This document shows positions 9,604 to 57,956 of a stretch of 59,898 bases of DNA, piece by piece (position 1 is the stretch's first letter; every line of letters starts with the position of its first letter). The position numbers were made by a program, and so were the translations under genes. The DNA comes from an uncultured Collinsella sp. GTDB lineage: Bacteria; Actinomycetota; Coriobacteriia; Coriobacteriales; Coriobacteriaceae. The notes under the pieces are model-generated. The model searched no databases. It worked only from the letters and a program-made list of their open reading frames with translations, and was not told the DNA's origin. The stretch is taken from NCBI GenBank assembly GCA_949285915.1, contig CASDZW010000010.1:1-59898 (forward strand). The letters are read 5' to 3'.

Positions 9604-9706
9604 CTGCACATTTGGGGACGGGGTCAAAACGTGCGGAGTCAAAACGCGTAAGAAAACGTTTCGATCGTCACCCTCAGATGACGTTGCGCGCACTATCATA
9701 GATATC

Positions 9707-9804
9707 GATGCAGGGGTACCCGGCACGCAAAGGCGCATGCCGAGTTGAGAGGGCGCTCTGCCCAACCCTTCGAACCTGTCAGGTAATGCTGTCGTAGGGA
9801 GCAT
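9707..9804 (+). promoter_or_regulatory. TPP riboswitch aptamer (THI element)
   Basis: The conserved thiamin-box pieces occur in order: GCAGGGGTACC, a variable arm ending CCGAGTTGAGAG, then CCCTTCGAACCTG, and TAATGCTGTCGTAGGGAGCA. GAACCTG and GTAGGGA are the pyrophosphate and closing-stem segments. It lies directly upstream of thiM, so thiamine diphosphate should switch the salvage operon off. Confidence 0.95.
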
Positions 9805-9817
9805 GGACGCGAACACA

Positions 9818-31209: not shown

Positions 31210-32736
31210 ATGACCCGCAAGATCGCCATCTTTGACACCACGCTTCGTGACGGCGAGCAGTCGCCCGGCGCCAGCATGAACACCGAGGAAAAGCTCATTG
31301 TCGCGCGCCAGCTCATCCGCATGAACGTGGATGTTATCGAGGCGGGTTTCCCCATTTCGAGCCCCGGCGACTTCAAGAGCGTCTCCGAAATTGGTCGCCT
31401 CGCGGGCGACAAGTGCGTCGTTTGCGGCCTCACGCGTGCCGTCGATAAGGACATCGAGGTTGCGGCGGAGGCGCTCAAGACCGCCAAGCGCCCGCGTATC
31501 CACACCGGCCTCGGCGTCTCCCCAAGCCACCTGCGCGACAAGCTTCACCTAACCGAGGACGAGGCCATTGAGCGCGCCATCCGCGCCGTCAAGCTCGCCC
31601 GCAACTTTGTGGACGATGTCGAGTTCTACGCCGAGGACGCCGGCCGTGCCGACCAGGACTTCTTGGTGCGCATCATCGAGGCGGCCATCAAGGCGGGCGC
31701 CACGGTGGTGAACATCCCCGACACCACGGGCTATAACATGCCGTGGGCGTTCGGTGCGCGCATCGCCGATCTGCGTGCGCGCGTGGACGGCATCGAGGAT
31801 GCGACCATCTCCGTGCACACCCACAACGACCTCGGCATGGCGACGGCGCTCGCCATCGAGGCCGTGCGCAACGGCGCGACGCAGGTCGAGTGCACCATCA
31901 ACGGTCTTGGCGAGCGCGCGGGCAACACGGCGCTCGAAGAGGTGGTCATGGCCATCAAGATGCACGGTGCCGAGCTCGATGCGCACACCGACATCGTCAC
32001 CCAGGAGCTGACGCGTGCCTCCAAGCTCGTGAGCTCGATCACGGGCATGACGGTGCAGGCCAACAAGGCCATCGTTGGCGCCAATGCCTTTGCGCACAGC
32101 TCCGGCATCCACCAGGACGGTGTCCTCAAGGCGCGCGACACCTACGAGATCATCGACCCGGCAGACGTGGGTGCCGGCGGCTCGCAGATCATCCTCTCCG
32201 CCCGCAGCGGCCATGCAGCGCTGCGCCATCGTATGGCGGAGCTCGGTTATACCTTTGCCGATGATGAGTTTGAGAGCATCTACCAGGCGTTCCTCGAGGT
32301 CGCGGATAAGAAGAAGGAAGTATACGACGAGGACCTCGAATCCATCGTGCACGAGCGCGAGCGCGAGACAAAGGCTATCTGGACGCTCGGCGCCGTGCAG
32401 GTGTCCTGCGGTTTCCCGCTCACGCCTACGGCGACGCTCACGCTCGTGGGCGAGGACGGCGTCGAGCACACGGTGGCCGCCTTCGGCACTGGTCCTGTCG
32501 ACGCGGTCTACAAGGCCGTGAACCAGATCGTAAGCGTGGAAAACGACCTTTCCGAGTTTGCCATCAAGGCAATCACGCGTGGTATCGATGCACTGGGCGA
32601 GGTCACGGTGCGCGTAACGGCGGGCGACGGTCAGGTCTACACTGGGCGCGGCTCGGACAACGACATCATCGTGTCCTCTACCAAGGCCTACATCAACGCG
32701 CTCAACCGCCTCATCTCTGAGCAGCGGCAAGCGTAA
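31210..32736 (+). CDS. leuA: 2-isopropylmalate synthase
   Basis: First committed step of leucine synthesis: acetyl-CoA + 2-oxoisovalerate. 508 residues. [16 protein letters not shown] near the N-terminus gives the metal/2-oxoacid site, HTHNDLGMA the metal histidines, [14 protein letters not shown] the second signature; the C-terminal ~130 residues form the LeuA regulatory domain ([15 protein letters not shown]) where leucine inhibits. Cytoplasmic, first structural gene of leuACDB, behind the attenuator. Confidence 0.97.
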
Positions 32737-32745
32737 GGCCACAAG

Positions 32746-32830
32746 GGGAGGTCCGGGTTTTCATCCCGTGCTCAAACAGCTTCGCGCTGCGCGCTCAGAA
32801 CTGCGCGCGGGACGAAACCCCGGACCTCCC
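32746..32830 (+). repeat. leu spacer hairpin A (type 1 core)
   Basis: Arms 32746-32768 and 32808-32830 pair at 21 of 23 positions. The 39-base core (TGCTCAAACAGCTTCGCG..., ending AACTGCGCG) is identical to that of hairpin C and can itself fold into CAGC/GCTG and CGCGC/GCGCG stems, giving a three-way junction. Starts ten bases after the leuA stop. No T-run follows, so it is not a plain terminator. Confidence 0.85.
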
Positions 32831-32879
32831 TCTGCACGGCTTCCTTTGTTTTCAGATTGCTCGATTGTTTGTTAACGAA

Positions 32880-32970
32880 GGGGCGGGCCGCACCCATCGT
32901 CCCGCGCGCAGTTCCGCAGGCCGCAGGCCGAGGACTGCCTGAGCACGGGATGATGGGTGCGGTCCGACCC
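32880..32970 (+). repeat. leu spacer hairpin B (type 2 core)
   Basis: Arms 32880-32904 and 32946-32970 pair over 25 positions with one mismatch and two G-T pairs. The 41-base core (starting CGCGCAGTTCCGCAGG) matches the reverse complement of core A at both ends and is 38/41 identical to core D. Ends 22 bases before leuC. The 49-base spacer between A and B is AT-richer than its surroundings. Confidence 0.85.
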
Positions 32971-32992
32971 GCAGGGATAAAAAGGAGTTGCA

Positions 32993-34258
32993 ATGGCTAG
33001 ACCTATGACCGTGGCCGAGAAGATCTTGGCTGCACACGCCGGGCTCGATGAGGTGCGCCCCGGCCAGCTCGTAGAGTGCGACCTCGATATCGTGCTCGCC
33101 AATGACATCACGGCGCCCATTGCCATCGATGTCTTCCGCGAGCTTGGGGCAACGCAGGTGTTCGACCGCGACCGCGTGTGCCTCGTGCCCGACCACTATG
33201 CGCCCAATAAGGACATCAAGAGCGCCGAGCAGACCAAGAAGATGCGCGACTTTGCCCATGAGCAGAAGATCACGCACTATTGGGAGCAGGGCTGCGCGGG
33301 CATTGAGCATGCGCTTCTGCCCGAGCAGGGCGTTGTGGTCCCGGGCGACCTCATCATCGGTGCCGACAGCCACACCTGCACCTACGGCGCGCTGGGCGCG
33401 TTCTCCACGGGTGTTGGCTCAACCGATGCAGGCGTGGGTCTTGCGACCGGTCGTGCTTGGTTCAAGGTGCCGCCCACCATCAAGTTCGTGATTGACGGCG
33501 AGCTCACCGACGGCGCCGCCGCAAAGGACATCATCCTCCACATCATCGGCCTCATCGGCGTTGACGGCGCGCTCTACCAGGCCATGGAGTTCACCGGTTC
33601 TACCATCGCGAACCTCTCCATGGAGGGGCGCATGTGCATCTCCAACATGGCGATTGAGGCGGGCGGCAAGGCCGGCATCATGGAAGTCGACGACGTGGCA
33701 CGTGCGTGGCTGCGCGACCGCTGCGAGCGCGACTATGTTGAGTACCACGCCGATGCAGATGCCGAATACGCCCAGGTGATTCATGTCGACGCGGCGGACA
33801 TCAAGCCGTGCGTCTCTTGGCCGCACCTGCCCTCCAACACGCATCCTGTGACGGAGAGCCGCGACATCAAGATCGATCAGGCGGTCATCGGCAGCTGCAC
33901 GAACGGCCGTATGGAGGACATGCGTGCCGCCGCTGAGGTGCTGCGCGGCCGCTGCGTGAACGAGAACGTGCGCTGCATCGTGATTCCCGCCACGCAGGCG
34001 GTTTTCAAGCAGTGCATGGCCGAGGGTCTGGCCGATGTCTTCATCGACGCCGGTTGCGTGTTCTCCACGCCCACTTGCGGCCCGTGCCTTGGCGGCTACA
34101 TGGGTATCCTCGCGGCGGGGGAGCGCTGCGTCTCCACCACCAACCGCAACTTCGTCGGCCGTATGGGCGACCCCACCTCTGAGGTCTACCTCGCGAGCCC
34201 GGCTGTTGCCGCCGCCTCTGCCGTGGCGGGCCACATCGCCCTGCCGAGCGACCTGTAA
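32993..34258 (+). CDS. leuC: 3-isopropylmalate dehydratase large subunit
   Basis: Aconitase-family [4Fe-4S] enzyme that isomerises 2- to 3-isopropylmalate with LeuD. 421 residues, the shorter LeuC/homoaconitase-like type. GADSHTCTYGALGAF, GSCTNGRMEDM (first cluster Cys) and STPTCGPCLGGYMG (other two cluster Cys) are present. ATG after AAAGGAG. Flanked on both sides by paired long hairpins, which may set its mRNA level relative to leuA and leuD. Confidence 0.96.
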   Translation: MARPMTVAEKILAAHAGLDEVRPGQLVECDLDIVLANDITAPIAIDVFRELGATQVFDRDRVCLVPDHYAPNKDIKSAEQTKKMRDFAHEQKITHYWEQGCAGIEHALLPEQGVVVPGDLIIGADSHTCTYGALGAFSTGVGSTDAGVGLATGRAWFKVPPTIKFVIDGELTDGAAAKDIILHIIGLIGVDGALYQAMEFTGSTIANLSMEGRMCISNMAIEAGGKAGIMEVDDVARAWLRDRCERDYVEYHADADAEYAQVIHVDAADIKPCVSWPHLPSNTHPVTESRDIKIDQAVIGSCTNGRMEDMRAAAEVLRGRCVNENVRCIVIPATQAVFKQCMAEGLADVFIDAGCVFSTPTCGPCLGGYMGILAAGERCVSTTNRNFVGRMGDPTSEVYLASPAVAAASAVAGHIALPSDL

Positions 34259-34269
34259 GTCGGACGAGG

Positions 34270-34350
34270 AGGACCGGATGCATCATCCCGTGCTCAAACA
34301 GCTTCGCGCTGCGCGCTCAGAACTGCGCGCGGGACGATGCATCCGGTCCT
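34270..34350 (+). repeat. leu spacer hairpin C (type 1 core)
   Basis: Arms 34270-34290 and 34330-34350 pair at 20 of 21 positions. The core is base-for-base the same as in hairpin A, while the outer arm sequence is different. It begins 11 bases after the leuC stop. Confidence 0.85.
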
Positions 34351-34398
34351 TTCAATCGCTCGTAGACCGCTCTGTCAATCAAACGTGTTCGCGGCGGG

Positions 34399-34481
34399 GG
34401 TGCGGGAGCATATCCTCCGCGCGCAGTTCCGCAAGCCGCAGGCCGAGGACTGTCTGAGTACGGAGGATATGCTCCCGCACC
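34399..34481 (+). repeat. leu spacer hairpin D (type 2 core)
   Basis: Arms 34399-34419 and 34461-34481 pair perfectly over 21 bases. The core differs from B at three of 41 positions. It ends 28 bases before leuD and is separated from C by 48 bases, almost the same as the A-B spacing. Confidence 0.85.
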
Positions 34482-34509: not shown

Positions 34510-35016
34510 ATGAAGTTCGAAGGTACCGTTTTCCGCTATGGGCGCGACGTGGACACCGATGTCATCATCCCCGCGCGCTACCTCAACAGCTCCGACCACG
34601 CGCACCTGGCGGCGCATGCGATGGAGGACCTCGACCCCACCTTTGCCACCCGCGTTCAGCCGGGCGATATCGTGGTCGCGGAGGAGAACTTTGGGTGCGG
34701 CTCCAGCCGTGAGCACGCGCCGGTTGCCCTCAAGGCGGCGGGTGTGTCGTGCGTCATCGCCAAGAGCTTCGCGCGCATCTTCTACCGTAACGCCATCAAC
34801 GTGGGCCTCGCCATCATGGAGTGCCCGGAGGCAGTGGACGCCATCGCCGACGGTGCACGCGTGGCGGTCGACACCGAGACCGGCACCATCACCAACCTCG
34901 ACACCGGTGCCAGCTTTACGGCTGAGCCCTTCCCGCCCTTCATTGCCGAGATTATTGAGGCGGGTGGTCTGGTGGAGCGCACGCGTCAGAAGCTCGCCGC
35001 GCAGGCGGATGCGTAA
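34510..35016 (+). CDS. leuD: 3-isopropylmalate dehydratase small subunit
   Basis: Swivelling-domain partner of LeuC. 168 residues, the compact type. [16 protein letters not shown] and [15 protein letters not shown] are diagnostic, and [18 protein letters not shown] follows. Strong ribosome-binding site AAGGAGG. leuB follows with 11 bases between. Confidence 0.96.
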
Positions 35017-46138: not shown

Positions 46139-46474
46139 GTAATACGCCTTCATCATTTCACTCTCGTTTTAGTTGCATCTAAAACGAGAGTGAAATGAAG
46201 GGAGAGAAGACGGGTGTTAGTCCCCCCCGGGGGGATGTGTGCAGCATTCTTTTCGATTGGAAAGATGGGGCAATTCGCGCGACAAAGAGCCTCGATATCG
46301 TGGTGCTGATCGGTGAGGAATCGATTGGTCTTTTCGCAAGATTTGCGGCGCTCTATCATGGGTTACACCAATCGCTATTTGTAAGCAACTTCCTCTAAAC
46401 TTGTCGCATGGGAAGGGAGGCGAAGTTCGCTTTCCTTGTGAAGCCAGAAGGGGAAGCGAGTGTAGGGGGCGCTT
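46139..46474. other. Gene-free stretch with an 18-base inverted repeat
   Basis: ATTTCACTCTCGTTTTAG (46155-46172) pairs exactly with 46179-46196 around TTGCAT, 16 bases after a gene stop; no T-run follows on the plus strand but it probably acts as an end-of-operon hairpin. A self-complementary C7/G6 run lies at about 46222-46234. An open frame at 46195-46398 has no ribosome-binding site and is not accepted. Nothing else is seen. Confidence 0.6.
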
Positions 46475-57613: not shown

Positions 57614-57956
57614 CGAAGCAATGAACCCGGTAATGCACCCGAGAAAACGCCCGCGGAAGAACCGCAGGTGGGAAGCCTGCATAAACCGAAGTAATGAACC
57701 CCGCGTGGTGAAAAGCGCCGAATCGCGCATTACTGGGTTCACTACTTCGGTTTTCGTCTGAAACACCTGCCCGGGTTCATTACTTCGTTTTATGCATGAC
57801 ACGTGGCGGCGAGCTCCCGAGATGCGAGCGCAGGCTCAATGGAGTTGCAAAATTGAACCCCTGTGTTTCGAAAACGTGCTATACTCGCTTGAAATTGAAC
57901 TTTGAACCATTATTCTGAACCAACAAGGATCAAATACGAAGGGAGTTCAATTTCAG
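57614..57956. promoter_or_regulatory. Array of TGAACC words upstream of the XRE-aminotransferase gene
   Basis: TGAAC occurs nine times on the two strands: forward at 57622, 57695, 57854, 57896, 57903 and 57916, reverse at 57735, 57773 and 57945. Seven of these are full TGAACC. Four belong to longer copies of CGAAGyArTGAACCC, two forward then two reverse, so that 57678-57701 pairs with 57773-57796 over 24 bases with one mismatch, and competing pairings are possible. The whole 729-base gene-free gap (57306-58034) holds this, copy 2 of the repeat element and the promoter below. Likely a multi-site operator or alternating RNA structure. Confidence 0.65.
57877..57885 (+). promoter_or_regulatory. 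Extended -10 promoter of the XRE-aminotransferase gene
   Basis: TGCTATACT is a near-perfect extended -10. Transcripts starting near 57892 would carry a ~140-base leader with a perfect 12-base inverted repeat (57890-57901 / 57944-57955). Confidence 0.7.

Follow-up and report, generated by a model that had tools for sequence, protein, structure and literature searches.

Among described systems, the closest to the hairpins reported here are the REP, BIME and REPIN elements, which, in the parts of PMC3733652 drawn on here, are dispersed intergenic palindromes, frequently set as opposed pairs, patchy across phyla, and placed mostly 3' of genes, between codirectional or convergent genes; REP elements measure 20-40 nt and can protect or delimit mRNA 3' ends. 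The family described below is alike in dispersal, pairing, patchiness and placement. It differs in the length of its unit (about 80-140 nt) and, unlike REP elements, consists of a conserved core flanked by long arms that have no fixed sequence. The second point of reference is copying from arm to arm by template switching, treated by Monttinen and Loytynoja (2022, PMC8794818) in a paper whose subject, in the parts used here, is RNA genes and their stems.

Hairpins around leuC

The window (the whole stretch of DNA that was analysed, 59,898 nucleotides from an uncultured Collinsella sp.) carries two pairs of hairpins among its leu genes:

31210..32736, forward strand: leuA (2-isopropylmalate synthase), upstream neighbour; NCBIfam equivalog cut-off passed
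32746..32830, forward strand: hairpin A; core 32767-32809 in forward orientation, arms 21 bp
32880..32970, reverse strand: hairpin B; core as in A, reversed (32903-32947), arms 23 bp
32993..34258, forward strand: leuC (3-isopropylmalate dehydratase large subunit), between the two hairpin pairs; NCBIfam equivalog cut-off passed
34270..34350, forward strand: hairpin C; core 34289-34331 in forward orientation, arms 19 bp
34399..34481, reverse strand: hairpin D; core reversed (34418-34462), arms 19 bp
34510..35016, forward strand: leuD (3-isopropylmalate dehydratase small subunit), downstream neighbour; named from NCBIfam

The leuD product falls slightly below the NCBIfam cut-off of TIGR02084 and above that of TIGR02087, a LeuD/DmdB subfamily model; the leuB product also passes an equivalog cut-off. 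Hairpins A and C start 9 and 11 nt after the stop codons of leuA and leuC, respectively, while B ends 22 nt before the leuC start codon and D 28 nt before that of leuD. Between 32700 and 34520, inverted repeats with exact arms of 11 bases, 20-110 apart, fill six centre bins (one hairpin may fill more than one), whereas 500 Markov-1 resamplings average 0.08 and never exceed 2, so that the four hairpins, each lying where the initial annotation had put it, are real and well above chance. That annotation distinguished two core types, and the likenesses on which it relied hold (55 identical bases are common to A and C, and B and D agree at 44 of 47, or 94%); compared on both strands, however, B and D contain the A/C core in reverse orientation with a different inner hairpin, and the two types reduce to one core in two orientations. 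The arms, described there as wholly different between elements, are indeed locus-specific in their outer part, but the inner 6-8 bp (TCATCC/GGACGA, with an A.C mispair) are common to A, B and C.

Neither the window nor 17 loci gave the family a match at the Rfam gathering score, and the top rows below threshold for hairpin loci were microRNA models only. The 'skipping-rope' motif, a candidate, was dropped because there was no Rfam match; the literature search for this motif yielded a single phage-host paper. Among the papers listed by a literature search by sequence string, none, judged by title and the start of the abstract, deals with such an element. Elsewhere in the window there is a TPP riboswitch (9702-9817) scoring above the Rfam gathering threshold, a single intergenic stretch (57678-57796) in which an inverted-repeat arm of 33 bases (AAACCGAAGTAATGAACCC and its complement, the arms being 85% complementary) occurs three times, and a palindrome without a loop (46153-46198, 23 + 23 bases, 96% complementary).

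Anatomy of the family

The core, CGTGCTCARACA...AACTGCGCGCG, is nearly invariant. Its stem, CGTGC/GCGCG, encloses a variable inner hairpin, is flanked by the arms, and contains fixed T.G and T.C mispairs: among 182 copies, position 3 is a T.G pair in 181 and position 6 a T.C mispair in 180, while Watson-Crick exchanges occur in 5 copies at pair 1, in 13 at pair 2 and in 12 at pair 4, an invariance that is partly selected for because the finder seeks the consensus and many loci came from the exact core pattern. Conserved A.C or C.A mispairs adjoin the core. Arms were extended ungapped by a finder with a preference for paired positions; for the first 174 copies this gave arms of 15-32 bp in 128, longer arms in four and arms below 15 bp in 42, the last figure coming from ungapped extension and so not implying true shortness. 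In the Bdellovibrionales genome G182, 33 of the 34 copies read have arms of 20-50 bp. Arm G+C tracks the host genome, at 0.69 in the Coriobacteriia-type set and 0.28 in Bdellovibrionales. Two copies at contig ends (L111 and L342) have perfect arms of at least 70 bp and are possibly assembly fold-backs. By eye, the leu spacers of G009, G014, G016 and G023 (L307, L309, L304, L305) hold hairpins of the same design with clearly diverged cores, for example CCCTCGCTGGTCC...GGAAGCGCTCGGG, which suggests sister families.

Distribution

A DNA search with a 64-base query from hairpin C matched 30 of 60 related genomes, that of the window counted, and a covariance model of 38 copies matched 64 of 149 Coriobacteriia genomes. 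The search of Coriobacteriia for the cores that had been proposed at the outset thus finds them well outside the window. The seeds of the model (38 of 40, drawn from 45) were chosen beforehand for paired arms, its E-values are rough, and some recurrent low scores may be another repeat. With one genome per species, the exact core pattern occurs in at least 117 stretches, 37 of which are placed by default in what we call the Coriobacteriia-type group; among the 80 matches listed, 11 lie, by record title, outside Actinomycetota (two in Bdellovibrionales, four in Eisenbacteria, four in Omnitrophota, one in Planctomycetota). On folding, the design is unchanged in loci outside Actinomycetota, and the 18 genomes behind 19 such loci, picked because of a match, have 2-44 model matches each. 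In the order of the genome with 44 copies, two of 39 sampled genomes match, that genome included, as do three of 58 in a sample of Omnitrophota, two being carriers already known. The family is therefore common in Coriobacteriia, and in some Bdellovibrionales and Omnitrophota it occurs patchily, yet in multiple copies; a spreading element would be expected to leave such a pattern. Viral contigs gave no match to the exact core pattern, and plasmids and phages no blastn match to the hairpin family, and viral, phage or plasmid carriage is rejected on these searches.

Genomic context

Gene context was taken from a custom codon-usage gene caller. Placement is mostly intergenic; 31 of 174 copies overlap a predicted gene, and many of these overlaps are probably due to over-long start calls. 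Counted once per gene-pair cluster, the flanking genes are codirectional in 56 cases, convergent in 18 and divergent in 6. Copies within 1 kb of each other mostly face plus then minus (22 of 26 pairs; four are plus-plus and none minus-plus). At Coriobacteriia-type loci, 59 of 101 copies with the core in the sense of the neighbouring gene begin 0-20 nt downstream of its stop codon, against 2 of 78 in antisense, and the difference holds when counted per gene cluster (22/52 against 2/46; Fisher p 1e-5). In G182 this bias is weak: 5 of 22 copies lie between divergent genes, and antisense copies also occur near stops.

The neighbours of other copies look like what we take to be fmt, dut, thyA-folA, thiC-thiM-thiE, tex and ribosomal-protein regions, judging from their translations. 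We reject leu-specific regulation, and what had been introduced as an element of the leu operon is instead a dispersed family. When the 949 proteins predicted no farther than 3 kb from a hairpin are clustered, one cluster has members in three of five host groups and nine have members in two; ten proteins, from nine of these ten cross-group clusters, belong to Pfam families that are all housekeeping (helicase, aminotransferase, EF-G, symporter, rhodanese, TsaE, alanine racemase, DHDPS and P5C reductase), with no transposase among them by Pfam. Nor did clustering of the proteins in the fetched loci reveal a recurrent transposase-like or linked gene near the hairpins.

The leu spacers carry hairpins in several relatives too. 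The leuC-leuD spacer is 12-13 nt in G001 and G004, and the leuA-leuC gap is 1 nt in G006 and G007. Where hairpins of this family are absent or fewer, the leu spacers of G005 (L300), G006 (L301), G007 (L303), G012 (L306) and G016 (L304) contain another repeat, CATTTGGGGACG(T/G)G(T/G)TCGTTTTGACYCAT. In G036 (L210), the plus-minus pair at Collinsella locus 2 has its 40-base and 49-base cores in swapped order relative to L194, L197, L199 and others, and it looks as if the whole unit had been inverted.

Concerted change of the arms

The outer arms are unlike between copies, yet about 95% Watson-Crick paired within a copy. In the leu spacers of G000 (the genome of the window), G002 and G003, where leuC is 96-97% identical, arm differences are found for A, B and C in one genome or more with pairing mostly kept, although uncompensated differences occur as well. 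Across nine Collinsella-group genomes the compensated share of changes reaches 0.86 and 0.93 at loci 1 and 2, respectively; it is 0.35 at locus 3, where few changes occur, and 0.63 at locus 4, which offers two comparisons. The analysis matches hairpins by flank similarity at a low threshold, sets different pair members against each other in some locus 2 rows, and leaves out arms below 15 bp, namely the hybrids L200 and L205. At locus 1 a single base, present in both arms, is all that distinguishes the arms of G028 from those of G036. Collinsella alleles are bimodal, so whole-allele exchange plays a part.

In G182, 14 copies belong to a single core subtype and have homologous arms at their different loci; with the inner seven bases excluded, these arms differ by 0.031 within a hairpin against 0.352 between copies; all 14 left arms are nearest, or tied, to their own right arm, and one copy (L336) has an identical 8-base gap in its left and right arms. 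At Collinsella loci 1 and 2, arm difference is 0.016 and 0.008 within hairpins against 0.294 between them, and the own arm is nearest in 5 of 6 and 9 of 10 cases respectively, short-armed hybrids (L200 and L205 at locus 1) excluded. In G189, from Omnitrophota, the same arms occur, identical, at several loci. Together with the homologous arms of G182, this indicates that the arms can move along with the core and undergo joint change afterwards; arms of different core subtypes in G182 look unrelated.

Pairing is also lost on occasion. In hairpin D of G003 and in alleles L200 and L205, arms from two different alleles are joined, with long stretches left unpaired; losing the pairing can thus be survived. 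Asymmetric indels occur in L196 and L218. Arm changes in close relatives that destroy pairing, on which the initial annotation would have given up its proposals, are thus present in a minority only (hairpin D of G003, L200 and L205). At Collinsella locus 4 the finder detects a hairpin in 1 of 15 loci, that of the query's own genome. The relevant stretch was covered for 7 of the other 14; G028 and G032, the close ones read, differ across the whole spacer, and this comparison yielded no clean insertion with a near-identical empty site.

Mispairs in the arms

A functional RNA stem is usually demonstrated by compensated base changes, and a stem selected as RNA is expected to tolerate G.U and not A.C. 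Of the 3078 pairs outside the first seven of each arm, 51 are G.U and 54 A.C in the core frame, and in the transcript frame 29 are G.U and 36 A.C of 1594; symmetric scoring in the core frame gives 39 G.U and 58 A.C in 2802 arm pairs, and the arms of G182 have 13 and 16 in 910. When one hairpin is drawn per gene cluster, the means are 18.3 G.U and 19.5 A.C of 892 (transcript frame). As a control, 49 terminator stems in the same loci contain 13 G.U and 5 A.C in 312 pairs, and they differ from the core arms of the symmetric set (39 against 58) with Fisher p 0.019, the control being scored in the transcript frame and the arms in the core frame. That G.U is as rare as A.C in the transcript frame argues against selection for RNA pairing; equal numbers would also result from selection on a DNA hairpin.

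Possible mechanisms

We favour, with a probability of roughly 0.5, a dispersed palindromic repeat of REP/BIME-like behaviour whose arms evolve in concert via DNA templating. The unit, arms included, would spread with the help of a putative trans-acting enzyme whose recognition target is the mispaired core hairpin, probably in the form of single-stranded DNA; thereafter the outer arms would drift under little sequence constraint, and a change in one arm would be copied to the other at the DNA level, either by template switching at the hairpin during replication or by mismatch repair of an extruded hairpin. In Coriobacteriia the unit would persist preferentially right after stop codons and between operon genes, where the transcript hairpin may protect or delimit mRNA 3' ends, by analogy with REP elements. 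Several observations weigh on the other side. Conserved A.C and C.A mispairs near the core have not been erased, which counts against the supposed copying, as does the low compensated share at locus 3, with its few changes; the unpaired hybrids (hairpin D of G003, L200, L205) and the asymmetric indels (L196, L218) indicate that copying is slow or absent there. No mobiliser was found in the PF01797 survey, in 20 RAYT loci or among neighbour proteins. Also on this side are the lack of a clean empty site, the weak stop-codon bias of G182 and the 42 of 174 copies whose arms stay below 15 bp on ungapped extension, and selection on a DNA hairpin predicts equal G.U and A.C as well. More tentatively, and as something we think possible rather than probable, the family may represent a new class of mobile palindrome, whose core, mispaired and almost invariant, moves from genome to genome and across phyla via a putative trans-acting enzyme while replication copies one arm of tens of bases, without fixed sequence, to the other, such that complementarity is inherited and sequence is not. 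The short-armed copies, the dropped hybrids and the 37 stretches assigned by default to the Coriobacteriia-type group lower a little the odds both of the favoured explanation and of such a class.

It is unlikely, in our judgement, that the hairpins are instead functional RNA elements, with the core read in the mRNA and the stem held by selection for RNA pairing, as a 3'-end protector or as an RNase processing site between operon genes. The excess of core-sense copies right after stops (59/101 against 2/78; by gene cluster 22/52 against 2/46), the occupation of the same leu spacers in several relatives and the strong covariation (of seeds chosen beforehand for pairing) all speak for this reading, but the tolerance of G.U that is seen in terminator stems has no counterpart in the transcript frame of the arms, one member of an opposed pair in an operon is antisense, the orientation bias of G182 is weak, and unpaired alleles persist (hairpin D of G003, L200, L205). 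Of the RNA stem with compensatory change that the initial annotation had offered, the compensated changes are therefore borne out, and the G.U tolerance (29 against 36 A.C) is not. Selection could instead act on DNA, with a hairpin or cruciform, single-stranded or extruded, kept as a protein-binding site by point mutation and compensation. The fixed T.G and T.C mispairs do resemble recognition features, and G.U and A.C are equally rare, as DNA pairing predicts; the same gap in both arms (L336; G028 against G036) is nevertheless more easily obtained from a single templated event than from two independent events, hybrid alleles that do not pair persist and the distribution is patchy, and we regard this explanation as less likely again. 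Least likely of all, to our mind, is that the core alone moves and that each insertion rebuilds its arms from one local flank, so that arms are locus-specific from birth. Arm composition tracks the host (G+C 0.69 against 0.28) and the core subtypes of G182 have seemingly unrelated arms, as such rebuilding would have it, yet identical arms stand at several G189 loci, 14 G182 copies have homologous arms, and arms at one locus still change between close relatives. This idea, too, goes back to the initial annotation: its dispersed core is found, whereas in G189 and G182 the arms have travelled with the core; elsewhere arms may have been rebuilt locally.

A natural family with extensive compensated change but without G.U tolerance means that covariation alone could mislead RNA discovery. 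Sister copies in one genome are replicates for measuring arm templating, and they make the template-switch idea directly testable in bacteria. A core common to several phyla, moreover, points to a mobilising or binding protein, as yet putative.

Comparison with known elements

Likeness to REP elements does not extend to their tag or to their transposase. Within 8 nt of 394 arm ends, GTAG occurs 4 times (4.5 expected), CTAC 11 (5.3), CGTC 15 (11.9) and GACG 16 (12.8). The core hairpin is absent from 20 fetched RAYT loci, which are part of the RAYT places known in relatives, and PF01797 is missing in 8 of 13 carriers tested, some of these assemblies being incomplete; on these grounds RAYT mobilisation is rejected as a general explanation. 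The genome of the window has one RAYT-like Y1 transposase gene (G000:C22:28455-28787, L173), and single copies are frequent in relatives.

The hairpins are also similar to MITEs in being short and non-coding, with inverted ends if hairpins are paired. Unlike MITEs, they show no excess of short direct repeats, barring 8-base end matches in 2 of 197 single hairpins (permuted maximum 1), and no related transposase gene was seen among the neighbouring proteins of the fetched loci; 4-base matches indicative of target-site duplication number 8 among the 197, against 9.8 permuted, and 29 hairpin pairs have two 5-base end matches against 0.5 permuted. Intrinsic terminators are likewise GC-rich hairpins shortly after stop codons (the hosts being GC-rich), but the present elements have a conserved core, a long stem and no T-rich tract past the arm: in 158 copies the T fraction after the right arm is 0.27 in the first three bases and 0.22 in the next three. 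At Collinsella locus 4, inspection of the sequence places a separate hairpin with a T-run downstream.

Template-switch hairpins, as treated in the parts of PMC8794818 used here, and bacterial quasipalindrome correction resemble the arms, since copying from arm to arm keeps stems perfect and brings several matched changes at a time. Here, too, matched substitutions and indels occur in both arms and G.U is not preferred. What sets our case apart from that work is that it concerns a dispersed repeat family with a conserved core, in which copying is inferred from sequences. The family is REP/BIME-like, yet without the tag and the RAYT link, and the behaviour of its arms resembles the known template-switch process.
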